NCBI RefSeq assembly: GCF_000353285.1 | Contig: NZ_KB731324.1 | Span: 2,684,577-2,748,576, forward strand | DNA: 64,000 nt | Direction of reading: 5' to 3' | From: Leptolyngbya boryana PCC 6306 | Lineage (GTDB): Bacteria > Cyanobacteriota > Cyanobacteriia > Leptolyngbyales > Leptolyngbyaceae | In this document: positions 48,344 to 52,830 of the stretch, in pieces | Layout: the number at the start of each line of letters is the position of its first letter | Position numbering within the stretch: position 1 is the stretch's first letter | Notes under the pieces: model-generated | The model's database searches: none | What the model was told of the DNA's origin: nothing | Seen by the model: only the letters and a program-made list of their open reading frames with translations | Position numbers and translations under genes: made by a program

Positions 48344-49183
48344 TTACTCATCCGACTCAAAATGCGAGTCCAAGAAATTCAACGCATGATTCCGCAGTTC
48401 ATAGTAAGCAGGAGAATTGCGAATCTTCGCTCGATCGCGGGGATGCTCAAACGGGACTTCTAGAATCTCTCCGATCGTAGCTTCAGGCCCATTCGTCATC
48501 AGCACAATGCGATCGCTCATATAAATCGCCTCATCGACATCATGCGTAATCATCATCACGGCTTGCCGATGCTGCTCCCAAATTTCTAGTACCTGTCGCT
48601 GTAATTTACTCTTGGTCAACGCATCCAAGGCTCCAAACGGCTCATCCATCAGCAGCATTTTTGGGCGGATTGCTAATGCTCTCGCAATTCCAACTCGCTG
48701 CTTCATGCCGCCTGAAATCTCATCCGGATACTTATCAGCCGCAGCATTGAGATTCACCATGGCAATGTGTTCATTGACAACCTGTTTTTTCTCAGCCGCA
48801 GACAAGCCTCTCGACACTTCATCGACAGCTAAGCGAATGTTCTGGCGCACCGTGAGCCAAGGCAGCAATGAATAGTTCTGAAACACCATCATTCTTTCTG
48901 CTCCGGGTTTGCGAATTTCTCGCCCTTCGAGTAAAACGGAACCTGAAGTCGATCGCTCTAGTCCCGCCACAATTTTTAGCAACGTAGACTTCCCACAGCC
49001 CGAATGCCCAATAATCGAGATATATTCGCGCTCCCCGATCGTTAAATTGACATCTTTGAGAATCACAGTTTCGCGATCGCCGTTTTTATACGATTTAGAA
49101 AGCTGCTGAATTTCAAGAAATGCTGGTGCATATGACATCCCAAACTCAGGCTTTGGCGCATTGAGCATGTTGAATTTTGTCAT
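48344..49183 (-). CDS. NrtD-type ABC ATPase
   Basis: 279 residues: Walker A IIGHSGCGKSTLLKIVAG, Q-loop MMVFQNYSLLPWLTV, signature EISGGMKQRVGIARALA, Walker B MLLMDEPFGALDALTK and H-loop MMITHDVDEAIYMSDRI. NrtD/SsuB-like subgroup of nitrate, sulfonate, bicarbonate and cyanate importers. It closes the operon permease - binding protein - ATPase on the minus strand. Confidence 0.88.
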   Translation of the reverse strand: MTKFNMLNAPKPEFGMSYAPAFLEIQQLSKSYKNGDRETVILKDVNLTIGEREYISIIGHSGCGKSTLLKIVAGLERSTSGSVLLEGREIRKPGAERMMVFQNYSLLPWLTVRQNIRLAVDEVSRGLSAAEKKQVVNEHIAMVNLNAAADKYPDEISGGMKQRVGIARALAIRPKMLLMDEPFGALDALTKSKLQRQVLEIWEQHRQAVMMITHDVDEAIYMSDRIVLMTNGPEATIGEILEVPFEHPRDRAKIRNSPAYYELRNHALNFLDSHFESDE

Positions 49184-49226: not shown

Positions 49227-50618
49227 CTAGGAAAAATAGACTTTTGTAGCTTGACTCGCCCGAATCTCGAAACTGTTGAGATACCCGACTGGATCGCTTG
49301 GGTCAAACGCTTTCTTGTCGATAAATGCTGCTGATGGCTCAACTTTGTAATCCTCAGTTGGACAAGCAATTCCCAACTCTGCTGCGACTTCGCGATAAAT
49401 ATCGGTGCGCCAAGATTTTGCTGCAATTTGATCCGCATCTTTCGGAATTTCTTTGATTTGTCCCCATCTCGCTGCTTGGGTCATCAGCCATAAACTGCGC
49501 GATTGCCACATAAATGTAGAATGCTCATCTTTGACGTGAGGCACATCTTTCGGCATGTCGAAGAACATGGTTGTCGAATCTGATTTCACGGTTCGATTTT
49601 TGCCATCAAATCCGCCGTAGTTGTAGTCTCCGACGATCGCTGGTCGAGTAAATTTCACATTTGCTCCGGTATACGATCGCGCTGAAATAATCTGAGCGAC
49701 TTCTTCTCGATTTTGATCACAGTAGCGACAGGCTTCGATCATCGCTTTGAGTAATGCCCGATAAGTTTTGGGATTCTCATCAATAAAAGATTGCATGACC
49801 GCAAGTAAGCGATCGGGATGTCCATTCCAAATCTCTCGTCCTTGAGCAAAAGTAAACCCGATGCCTTCATTCCCTGAAATTGCCCGTGTATTCCAGGGTT
49901 CAGCGACCATGTAACCTTGCATTGCGCCAATCCGCACATTCGTCACCATCTGGGGCGGGGGCACAATAATCACTCGAAACTCTTTGAGTGGATTGACTCC
50001 TGCTGCTGCAGCAACGTAGCGCACAAAGTACTCGTAGATTGAAGAACTGAGGACGACTGCCCAGACTCGTTGCTCTGAAGGTAAGTTATCAAAGTACTGT
50101 CGAAAGTCTTGCCCAAATGTGTCTAAGTTGCCGTTGTATGCTGACCAAGGACGCAATCCTGACTCCCACATTGCGCGATTCATCGTCATCGCATTTCCGT
50201 GATGATGAATGGTCATGCCAGCACACATCGGAGCATGGCGCGCGCCTTCTGCTCCAACTCGCGCATTTGTAACTGCTCCGGCAACGACGGGAGCCGCATC
50301 TAAGCGACCGAAGATTAAGCCATCTCGTGAGGTCGCCCAACTGGCTTCACGGCTCAATTGTACATTCAAGCCATATTTGCGAAAAAAACCTTTTTCCCAA
50401 GCGATCGCAAATGGTGCACAGTCATTGACTGGAACATAGCCGAGCGTCAAATTCGGTTTTTCTAACTCGCTCGATTGAATCACAGGAGTAACTGACATTG
50501 CAGCCTCAGAGAGTCCTTGGGGTGCACGACTGGCATTGATCGCACATGAAGGCAGTGAAGCTGCCACAGTCGAGGTTCCCGCGCCGATTAAAAATGCTCG
50601 TCTTGTCCAATTTCTCAT
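49227..50618 (-). CDS. NrtA/CmpA-type binding protein of an ABC importer
   Basis: 463 residues with a twin-arginine-type signal (WTRRAFLIGAGTSTVAASLPSC) ending in a lipobox-like LPSC, so it is probably a lipid-anchored periplasmic protein. The solute-binding domain shows LTLGYVPVNDCAPFAIAWEKGFFRKYGL and ASWATSRDGLIFGRLDAAPV, then GYMVAEPWNTRAI, as in nitrate (NrtA), bicarbonate (CmpA) and cyanate (CynA) receptors. Residues do not let me choose the ligand. Unlike classic nrtABCD, no NrtC-like fusion is present. Confidence 0.87.
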   Translation of the reverse strand: MRNWTRRAFLIGAGTSTVAASLPSCAINASRAPQGLSEAAMSVTPVIQSSELEKPNLTLGYVPVNDCAPFAIAWEKGFFRKYGLNVQLSREASWATSRDGLIFGRLDAAPVVAGAVTNARVGAEGARHAPMCAGMTIHHHGNAMTMNRAMWESGLRPWSAYNGNLDTFGQDFRQYFDNLPSEQRVWAVVLSSSIYEYFVRYVAAAAGVNPLKEFRVIIVPPPQMVTNVRIGAMQGYMVAEPWNTRAISGNEGIGFTFAQGREIWNGHPDRLLAVMQSFIDENPKTYRALLKAMIEACRYCDQNREEVAQIISARSYTGANVKFTRPAIVGDYNYGGFDGKNRTVKSDSTTMFFDMPKDVPHVKDEHSTFMWQSRSLWLMTQAARWGQIKEIPKDADQIAAKSWRTDIYREVAAELGIACPTEDYKVEPSAAFIDKKAFDPSDPVGYLNSFEIRASQATKVYFS

Positions 50619-50823: not shown

Positions 50824-51672
50824 CTAAACCGATCGCCGACGATGTGTTACTAGAGCTTCAAGCTGGGCTAATCCAAAATCTAATAGCAATCCTGTTAAGC
50901 CAATGACAAACACGGCTAAAAACACAGAGCTAAGATTCAATCGACTCCATTCATCCCACACAAAGAATCCGATTCCCACTCCGCCAGTTAGCATTTCGAC
51001 TGCCACAATCACCAGCCAAGCAATTCCCAGGCTAATTCTCAAACCTGTAAAAATGTACGGCAAGCTAGCAGGGAGCACAATCTTCAGAATCCGCCGCCAC
51101 TGCGGCATTTCTAACACTCGCGACACATCAATATAATCTTTTGGGACACTCGATACGCCCAACGCAGTGTTGATAATCGTTGCCCAAAGTGAAGTAATGA
51201 AGATCACGAAAATTGCTGAAGGATCAGCCAGATTGAAAATAGAAAGCGCGATCGGTAACCAAGCCAGCGGTGAAACAGGCTTAAAAATCTGAATGACTGG
51301 ATTAAGCGCCATCATTGCTTTTTCAGACATGCCAATCAAAAAGCCGACTGGAATCGCAACCAATGCCCCCAAGGTAAATCCAATCAATACTCGTCGCAAA
51401 CTCGCAAGTAAGAGCCATCCTAATCCCAAGTCTCCGGGACCTCGACGATAAAACGGATGCAGAATGTAATCCAAATTCGCAACCAATGCTTCAGGAGGCG
51501 TTGGAATCAATTCAGGTTTGGCAAGTGCGATCGCCCACCACAGCACAATCACACCTAGAAAACCTAGGAACGGTAAAAAGACACGATCGCGACTAATAAC
51601 TGGACGAACCCGCCGCCCCATCGCTTGAGAAACAACAGCAAACATTGCTGCCAAATTGATTTGCAGGATCAT
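50824..51672 (-). CDS. NrtB-type ABC permease
   Basis: 282 residues with six helices: FLPFLGFLGVIVLWWAIALA, ASLRRVLIGFTLGALVAIPVGFLIG, the EAA-loop stretch FITSLWATIINTALGV with DVSRVLEMPQWRRILKIVLPASLPYIFTGLRISLGIAWLVIV, and a C-terminal helix. It forms the channel of the importer. GGAG lies about 11 bases before ATG 51672. It is first in the operon, directly behind the riboswitch-like leader, which makes it the most directly controlled gene. Confidence 0.88.
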   Translation of the reverse strand: MILQINLAAMFAVVSQAMGRRVRPVISRDRVFLPFLGFLGVIVLWWAIALAKPELIPTPPEALVANLDYILHPFYRRGPGDLGLGWLLLASLRRVLIGFTLGALVAIPVGFLIGMSEKAMMALNPVIQIFKPVSPLAWLPIALSIFNLADPSAIFVIFITSLWATIINTALGVSSVPKDYIDVSRVLEMPQWRRILKIVLPASLPYIFTGLRISLGIAWLVIVAVEMLTGGVGIGFFVWDEWSRLNLSSVFLAVFVIGLTGLLLDFGLAQLEALVTHRRRSV

Positions 51673-51694
51673 AAGTTTAGATTCTCCAGAGCCA

Positions 51695-51850
51695 AACTCT
51701 CGAATGCTGACGAAGTTAGCTGACGGGCGAGGGCTGCGAGATGCCCCCCATTGGGTTACTTAGAAATAACTAAGCTCACAACAGTAAGCCCCGAATAAAC
51801 TGGTTCCTCCGCTTCAGAGATTACTCTCTGAATTAAGCTGACCGACTCGA
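51695..51850 (-). promoter_or_regulatory. ydaO/yuaA-type c-di-AMP riboswitch (predicted)
   Basis: Read on the minus strand, the leader contains the landmark segments of this riboswitch class in the right order: CAGCTTAATTC, a small AGAGA/TCTCT hairpin, AAGCGGAGGAACCAG, TTCGGGGC, a variable central part with AACCCAATGGGG, and the near-invariant end CCCGTCAGCTAACTTCGTCAGC. It ends about 20 bases before the permease start, so it can act on expression. In this class ligand binding usually switches expression off. The call is from memory of the consensus; a covariance-model search was not possible. Confidence 0.8.
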
Positions 51851-51942
51851 ATAGGAGATACTTTACCATCGAAGTATCAAAATGAACAATCTTTCTTTAG
51901 AAGTATTTCATGATCCTCTCACAACAGAATGCATAAAAATTC

Positions 51943-52830
51943 TCAATCGATTGGATAGTTTATCGATCGAACACTGTGCCCCTCTCCGATCTCTAGAACT
52001 AAATCTGCCTGCTTTAGTAGGGGCGGAATGAATAATTCAGGGTGTAAGGCTTGCCAAAAGTACTCGACAAATTCATCGATTTCAGCATCACTCATTCCAG
52101 CTTTACCTTGAGCAATCATTTTATGCTCAGCTTCTTTCCGCCATTGTTTGCTCAGTTGATACTCTGGAACATAGAGAATCACGAAGCGATCGAGTAATTC
52201 CCACAACGGTACATAGCTCTGTAATTGCTGATTCATGGCTTGTGCGAATTGCTGATCTGCAACGATCTCGAACTCAGAAACAATCGGGCGTACGCCCACA
52301 AACCATCCCTCAAAGAGAATAATATCTGCCTGTGTAATGAGTTCTGGCTCACTGCGATCGCCTTCGCCTCCATGAGCCGATTTATCAAATCTGGGCAGTG
52401 AGATCGGAAACTCTCCCCGCTGAAACTGCTGTAAAACCTCAATGCCTAATTGCACATCATGCGTTCCAGGTGGTCCTCGACGAATCATTCGCGGATCACG
52501 AGTTCGCAACCGAACTCGATCGACATACGGCGAATACAAATCATCAAGTGACCAACTCACAGTCGAGTAGCCGAGCTTGTTGAGAAGCAGCGCAAGGACT
52601 TTAGTTAAGGTGGTTTTTCCAGTGCCTTGCCCACCTAGAAAAGCCTGAATGAGAACACGAGATTGAGCGTTGCGCCAATGTGCAATCTGAAAGGCTAAAG
52701 GTACCCAGATCTTCTTAATGGTGTCAGGGTCGGGCACAATTTCGAGTTCGTTGCAGAGTTCTACGATCGCAGCTTCGTGGATTTTAAGAAACTCGGATCG
52801 ATTCCTTTCAGACTCATAATCAATATCCAT
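51943..52830 (-). CDS. D-glycerate 3-kinase (plant/cyanobacterial GLYK type)
   Basis: 295 residues of the P-loop kinase family that returns photorespiratory glycerate to 3-phosphoglycerate. Walker A is IQAFLGGQGTGKTTLTKVL; SWSLDDLYSPYVDRVRL, MIRRGPPGTHDVQLG, FDKSAHGGEGDR and ILFEGWFVGVRP follow in the order known for GLYK. ATG 52830 is used. The gene lies upstream of the riboswitch-controlled operon on the same strand, so read-through into the leader is possible. Confidence 0.87.
   Translation of the reverse strand: MDIDYESERNRSEFLKIHEAAIVELCNELEIVPDPDTIKKIWVPLAFQIAHWRNAQSRVLIQAFLGGQGTGKTTLTKVLALLLNKLGYSTVSWSLDDLYSPYVDRVRLRTRDPRMIRRGPPGTHDVQLGIEVLQQFQRGEFPISLPRFDKSAHGGEGDRSEPELITQADIILFEGWFVGVRPIVSEFEIVADQQFAQAMNQQLQSYVPLWELLDRFVILYVPEYQLSKQWRKEAEHKMIAQGKAGMSDAEIDEFVEYFWQALHPELFIPPLLKQADLVLEIGEGHSVRSINYPID

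Follow-up and report, generated by a model that had tools for sequence, protein, structure and literature searches.

The DNA analysed here, referred to as the window, is a stretch of 64,000 nucleotides from Leptolyngbya boryana PCC 6306. Within it, a riboswitch aptamer of the c-di-AMP (ydaO/yuaA) class stands directly before a set of genes for an ATP-binding cassette (ABC) importer, which follow the leader in the order permease, receptor, ATPase. The features of this locus, from the upstream side downwards, are the following:

51860–51889, minus strand: weak candidate promoter (by eye), with TTGTTC and TAAAGT separated by 18 nt, immediately ahead of the aptamer
51690–51849, minus strand: full-length c-di-AMP riboswitch aptamer, RF00379 (cmscan; helix covariation within the genus)
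51737–51741, minus strand: TCTCG, loop strand of a putative 3′ pseudoknot, able to pair with CGAGA at 51702–51698
51711–51727, minus strand: conserved aptamer block CCCGTCAGCTAACTTCG (read in the sequence)
51684–51704, minus strand: candidate hairpin that takes up GAGAG, a strand of the pseudoknot, together with three Shine-Dalgarno bases of GGAG (RNAalifold, eight genus leaders)
51684–51687, minus strand: putative Shine-Dalgarno sequence GGAG (read in the sequence and in the window fold)
50824–51672, minus strand: ABC importer permease, 282 aa (PF00528; TIGR01183 ntrB, 241 bits, cut-off 209)
49227–50618, minus strand: solute-binding receptor, 463 aa (PF13379 NMT1_2, 216 bits)
48344–49183, minus strand: ABC ATPase, 279 aa (PF00005; TIGR01184 ntrCD, 374 bits, cut-off 292)

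The aptamer and the importer operon

When the whole window was searched with cmscan, RF00379 was the sole Rfam family to reach its gathering threshold. The match scores 50.8 bits against a cut-off of 38 (E 7.4e-09) and spans model positions 1–134 of 134 without truncation. The original prediction had assigned the leader to the ydaO/yuaA class, named the block CCCGTCAGCTAACTTCG as one of its conserved elements, and let the leader end about 20 bases ahead of the permease start; each of these statements holds, with the block found at 51727–51711 and 17 nt between the end of the match and the permease ATG at 51672. The covariance-model search of the minus strand that it suggested gave the above-cut-off match at 51849–51690.

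In an alignment of the leaders from eight genomes of the genus, 97.6% of the cells in the aptamer helices are standard pairs. Two-sided changes occur in 8 of 41 aptamer pairs, no shuffle out of 500 reached the covariation score, and sliding the helix partners against each other lowers pairing to 37%–49%. A chance match was rejected on the RF00379 score, this helix covariation, and a conservation of position beyond chance expectation; the aptamer is confirmed as a genuine member of the known c-di-AMP riboswitch class. At the candidate promoter, six of the eight genus leaders share TAAAGT, the remaining two reading TAAATT and TAGAGT; TTGTTC is kept in only three, and a consensus promoter scan reported nothing at 51860–51889.

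Pfam matches, together with a twin-arginine motif and a lipobox-like cysteine seen by eye at the N terminus of the receptor, uphold the earlier description of the importer as a permease, a Tat/lipoprotein-type receptor, and an ATPase. The best PDB sequence matches of the receptor are the regulatory domains of CmpC/NrtC, followed by NrtA and then CmpA. Beyond the 279 aa ATPase the next listed open reading frame (ORF) lies on the opposite strand, and there is no second ATPase with a fused regulatory domain. The operon thus shares its permease, receptor, and ATPase families with NrtABCD and CmpABCD (BCT1), but differs from both in comprising three genes in the order permease–receptor–ATPase, in having no fused ATPase–regulatory domain, in its pocket residues, and in being led by a riboswitch. 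On the upstream side, a gene on the same strand (51943–52830, minus strand) has weak nucleoside/uridine-kinase-type NCBIfam similarity only and no Pfam match. This kinase-like gene was rejected as a member of the unit, having no homologue in the 80 named loci (tblastn, E 1e-10, up to 5 kb each side).

Those 80 loci are the best 80 of 207 relatives and include Nostoc, Calothrix, Fischerella, Scytonema, Dolichospermum, Leptolyngbya, Phormidesmis, and Microcoleus. The gene order is kept in 78 of them; of the two exceptions, one (L068) stops at a contig end and the other (L085) has only pieces of the receptor and ATPase.

Riboswitch and importer across the cyanobacteria

Conservation of the leader in homologues had been set beforehand as a test of the prediction, and 388 genomes of the class were searched for it, with the permease subfamily taken at E values up to 1e-80. 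This subfamily comprises 116 genes in 115 of the 388 genomes. RF00379 matches occur in 195 of the 388 (194 over the cut-off, under stricter filters), and a second search of the 115 permease-bearing genomes with laxer filters gave 225 matches, one of them under the cut-off. An RF00379 match lies within 1 kb upstream and on the same strand of 104 of the 116 permease genes, against about 0.02 expected from random placement of the matches. In the best 80 of the 207 relatives, 79 of the 80 named homologous permeases have the first 13 bases of CCCGTCAGCTAACTTCG (up to two mismatches) in the 450 nt before them. The coordinate difference between the aptamer and the first aligned permease residue spans 17 to 683 with a median of about 101: it is 17–20 in the eight genomes of the genus and 74–242 in the other 96, two exceptions at 427 and 683 aside.

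The remaining permease genes differ in kind. In one genome (G198) a contig end cuts the leader, which retains a partial RF00379 match of 35.9 bits. In G127 and G263 the riboswitch precedes a GT4 glycosyltransferase gene that is followed by the importer, with an extra 150 aa ORF between them in G263, and in G178 and G136 an apparently decayed leader lies ahead of the permease. No RF00379 match was found upstream of the permease in G007, G108, G151, G177, G179, G199, and G275 (7 of 116 genes), where the contig ends about 510 nt upstream in G007 and about 705 nt upstream in G177 and the permease match of G179 is partial; with the exception of G007, none of the seven has an RF00379 match anywhere in its genome. 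Sequences resembling the aptamer core lie ahead of the permease in L156 and L160, and RF00379 does not match them even at E 0.01. The importer is thus retained without the riboswitch in places, given these seven genes and the two with a remnant only. By eye, the core is missing from the leaders of L051, L055, and the Dolichospermum locus L098, which retain the 5′ portion of the aptamer and the Shine-Dalgarno sequence; they may be natural cases in which the riboswitch was deleted from in front of this permease.

A single diadenylate cyclase (DAC) domain is present in the genome of L. boryana (E 1.5e-39; this concerns gene presence only), and such a domain was found in 13 of 13 other genomes tested. 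The recurrence of aptamer and importer together in many cyanobacteria makes control of the importer by c-di-AMP very probable.

The riboswitch also precedes other genes. Every second one of the 121 RF00379 matches that are not directly before the importer was sampled (n = 60), and the genes downstream were a universal stress protein in 33 cases, the commonest pairing, a CitMHS/ArsB-type transporter in 13, a GT4 glycosyltransferase in 3, a lone Nrt/Cmp-type receptor in 1, and others in 10. These ten include what we take, by eye, to be antiporter-like, succinyl-CoA-ligase-like, NfeD-like, and cation-ATPase-like proteins, and one match on a short contig that was followed by no ORF. Of the best 30 riboswitch matches of the class, 10 stand before the importer; by eye, 13 of the 30 are followed by the CitMHS type and 3 by a universal stress protein. 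The second riboswitch of L. boryana lies outside the window (G000:C1:5254129–5254253; L001, L168), scores 73.4 bits, and precedes a universal stress protein gene. In L155 and L156 a universal stress protein gene with its own riboswitch lies directly behind the importer operon, and position and blastp indicate the same arrangement in G087, G107, G116, and G303. The two former loci (L155 1762–6847, and L156 in reverse) come from two genomes of one family, and in both a riboswitch, the GT4 gene, and the importer operon are followed by a further riboswitch and the universal-stress-type ORF; a 150 aa ORF lies between the GT4 gene and the importer in L156.

The lone receptor belongs to a genome of the same genus (G282), in which a riboswitch of 70.3 bits (L213, 21–185) lies before the receptor gene at 322–1704. 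It is 53% identical to the NrtA-like and 52% to the CmpA-like receptor of L. boryana, and has Ile at the NrtA His196 position. On sequence grounds this locus is a second link between the c-di-AMP riboswitch and the Nrt/Cmp receptor family.

The expression platform and the sense of control

Three terminator-like sites occur in 4 kb against 4.1 expected, so they are not above chance; one lies inside the aptamer and two inside the permease gene, and an intrinsic terminator was rejected on their number and positions. Because no above-chance terminator-like site lies between aptamer and start, control is probably exerted at translation rather than through transcription termination. A comparable case is the nlpC riboswitch of Corynebacterium glutamicum, described as a repressing member of the class that most likely acts at translation and lacks a canonical terminator (PMC9960051). 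It resembles the window leader in its RF00379-type aptamer, the missing canonical terminator, and a probable action on translation, and differs in its target gene and in its Shine-Dalgarno arrangement; its direction, translational OFF, is a putative one for the window.

In the genus, the leader leads from GAGAG over UUUGRCUCUGGAG (CUUG in one) to the start. RNAalifold on the eight leaders pairs GAGAG with CUCU (51691–51688 in the window) in a hairpin that also includes three Shine-Dalgarno bases, and 97.9% of cells are paired over six of its pairs. The candidate hairpin is without covariation in these leaders, four of the six counted pairs being invariant and none showing a two-sided change. 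As GAGAG is also a strand of the pseudoknot, hairpin and pseudoknot cannot coexist. The hairpin is missing from the minimum-energy fold of the window leader, and opening of the Shine-Dalgarno sequence was not seen when this leader was folded freely or with the pseudoknot strands barred, barring being different from modelling a pseudoknot. Outside the genus, 27 leaders picked for diversity from 79 gave a consensus fold with two hairpins after the aptamer, with two-sided changes in 5 of 24 pairs and no U-run after either stem; the genus of the window is without this two-hairpin spacer region.

The class is described as consisting of OFF switches (PMC9960051), and by that precedent repression of the importer at high c-di-AMP is favoured, at somewhat better than even weight. 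Its main rival is an ON switch in the genus of the window, in which binding of c-di-AMP would fix GAGAG in the pseudoknot and block the GAGAG:CUCU hairpin, so that translation could start. The ability of the eight genus leaders examined to form a Shine-Dalgarno hairpin that shares the pseudoknot strand would suggest this direction and speaks against OFF, as does an aptamer ending just 17–20 nt (coordinate difference) ahead of the start in the eight genomes. The ON switch is nonetheless rather unlikely, given the class precedent, the want of covariation in the hairpin, its absence from the minimum-energy fold of the window leader, and a Shine-Dalgarno sequence that stayed closed in silico with the pseudoknot strands barred; simple folding gave no sign of switching in either direction. 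The pseudoknot also bears on whether the window aptamer is in decay, with switching lost in this species. CUCUCA:UGAGAG forms six of six pairs in the other seven genus leaders and four of six in the window, and the window aptamer has the lowest score of the eight genus copies (50.8 versus 51.3–62.9 bits); apparent decayed remnants stand before the same permease in L051, L055, and Dolichospermum L098. Yet the window aptamer is still 12.8 bits over the cut-off with its core blocks intact, and an alternative pseudoknot, UCUCG:CGAGA, shifted in register by one, gives five of five pairs, which makes decay very unlikely.

Cargo of the importer and its place in a regulon

The original prediction had spoken of a nitrate/bicarbonate-type importer, which stands as a statement of family, the permease and ATPase passing the ntrB and ntrCD cut-offs and the receptor belonging to the NrtA/CmpA family, and is not supported as a statement of cargo. 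L. boryana has 15 NMT1_2 matches, two of which are NrtA- and CmpA-like proteins with fused NrtC/CmpC-type ATPases nearby; it very probably possesses separate importers for nitrate and bicarbonate, to judge from these genes, and RF00379 is absent from both its nrt- and cmp-type loci. With each of these two, the NrtA-like and the CmpA-like protein, the window receptor shares about 30% sequence identity. A further strong match to NMT1_2 in this genome (L147, 991–2589) is a receptor whose N terminus carries a long extension; a 284 aa ORF follows it, and the residue aligned with NrtA Lys269 is Cys.

In NrtA, His196 and Lys269 are reported to balance the charge of nitrate (PMC8786288). Their places are taken in CmpA by Gln198 and a Glu of the Ca2+ site (residue roles as given in PMC11349869 and PMC13249358; the Glu was placed opposite Lys269 by alignment), and in each of the 91 subfamily receptors compared by Tyr195 and Arg270. 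These 91, all of which retain the pocket Trp, comprise the window receptor, those of 78 of the 80 named loci and those of 12 of 13 further loci; receptors that contained stops or gave only short matches were left out, which removed L068 and L085 from the named loci. The importer is a branch beside the Nrt (nitrate) and Cmp (bicarbonate) importers, and the family-model name "nitrate transporter" is a family-level one that is probably wrong for the cargo of this operon. Because Tyr/Arg replaces both the His/Lys of NrtA and the Gln/Glu of CmpA throughout, nitrate and bicarbonate are unlikely; the pocket Arg keeps an anion the likely cargo, so far as residues can tell.

Were nitrate or bicarbonate nevertheless carried, c-di-AMP would directly govern nitrogen or carbon uptake. 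The scores of the permease and ATPase over nitrate-transporter NCBIfam cut-offs and the family of the receptor would fit this; set against the pocket of the 91 receptors and the separate nrt- and cmp-type operons without RF00379, it is quite improbable. A cargo that is an anionic or zwitterionic compatible solute, which would make the locus a case of ordinary c-di-AMP osmoregulation through an unusual transporter family, is a serious candidate, if short of an even chance. It would accord with the two genomes in which the operon follows a riboswitch-led GT4 glycosyltransferase gene, with the universal stress protein genes, CitMHS/ArsB-type genes, and cation antiporters (the last by eye) among the other targets, and with cyanobacterial targets said to include osmoprotectant transport and synthesis (research article PMC5986932 and review PMC4284465, both citing a 2013 survey). 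Weighing against it, the GT4 glycosyltransferase matches to NCBIfam that were shown are all below cut-off, and the NrtA/CmpA receptor cluster is said to bind trigonal planar oxyanions (PMC8786288). An osmolyte cargo, the alternative offered by the original prediction, would be compatible with the other genes behind the riboswitch.

Among known systems, a review (PMC10117731) names slr0753 of Synechocystis, a putative chloride efflux transporter, as the site of a verified c-di-AMP riboswitch. This gene is described elsewhere as a suppressor of chloride need (PMC9896922), and in the available text of a salt-stress proteome study its protein was undetected and mRNA induction unreported (PMC8670252). 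As in the window, a cyanobacterial c-di-AMP riboswitch there stands ahead of a putative anion transporter gene, with the difference that slr0753 encodes a single putative chloride exporter and the window an ABC importer. The precedent supports an anion as cargo and lowers the novelty of an anion transporter as a cyanobacterial target. Compared with the ydaO/yuaA (kimA) class in general, the window shares a full-length RF00379 match, the conserved core, the helices, and a putative 3′ pseudoknot, but departs from it in its nitrate/bicarbonate-family importer as target, in having no above-chance terminator-like site, and in the very short spacer of the genus. An Nrt/Cmp-type importer is not named as a riboswitch target in the available text of PMC10117731, PMC5986932, PMC5897029, PMC3766115, PMC2864571, PMC7266159, PMC9960051, or PMC4284465, nor in the titles and abstract openings of the other CC-licensed papers listed, although the gene tables of the 2013 survey by Nelson may list it. 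The aptamer class is known, and the importer is an unusual target, not found described in the available portions of that literature, the 2013 survey aside.

Taken together, the locus is probably a c-di-AMP riboswitch, mainly translational, that controls a small-solute importer within an ion and osmotic-stress regulon. Under this explanation, c-di-AMP would bind the window aptamer; the riboswitch would control the permease gene and hence probably the rest of the importer operon; and control would act mainly at translation, with repression when c-di-AMP is high. The most likely cargo of the importer would be a small solute, probably some anion that is neither nitrate nor bicarbonate, and the importer would belong to the regulon together with the universal stress protein and the CitMHS/ArsB-type transporter. 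Counting against this explanation are the window copy, the weakest of eight in its genus and altered in its pseudoknot register, and the 7 of 116 permease genes without a riboswitch and two more with a remnant only. A bolder reading joins these elements: the operon would be a third branch of the NrtA/CmpA family, present in many cyanobacterial lineages, that forms the import arm of a c-di-AMP anion-balance regulon, with the CitMHS/ArsB-type gene (slr0753-like by description, a putative chloride exporter) as export arm and an anion or anionic osmolyte, neither nitrate nor bicarbonate, as cargo; in the genus, a platform shrunk to a hairpin competing with the pseudoknot could act as an ON switch. 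As a whole this reading is improbable.

The interest of the locus rests on the importer, the regulon, and the shortened platform of the genus. Tied to the riboswitch in 104 of 116 cases, the importer is a clear further cyanobacterial target beside the osmoprotectant genes and slr0753, and the riboswitch in turn hints at the physiology of a transporter which family models call, probably wrongly, a nitrate importer.
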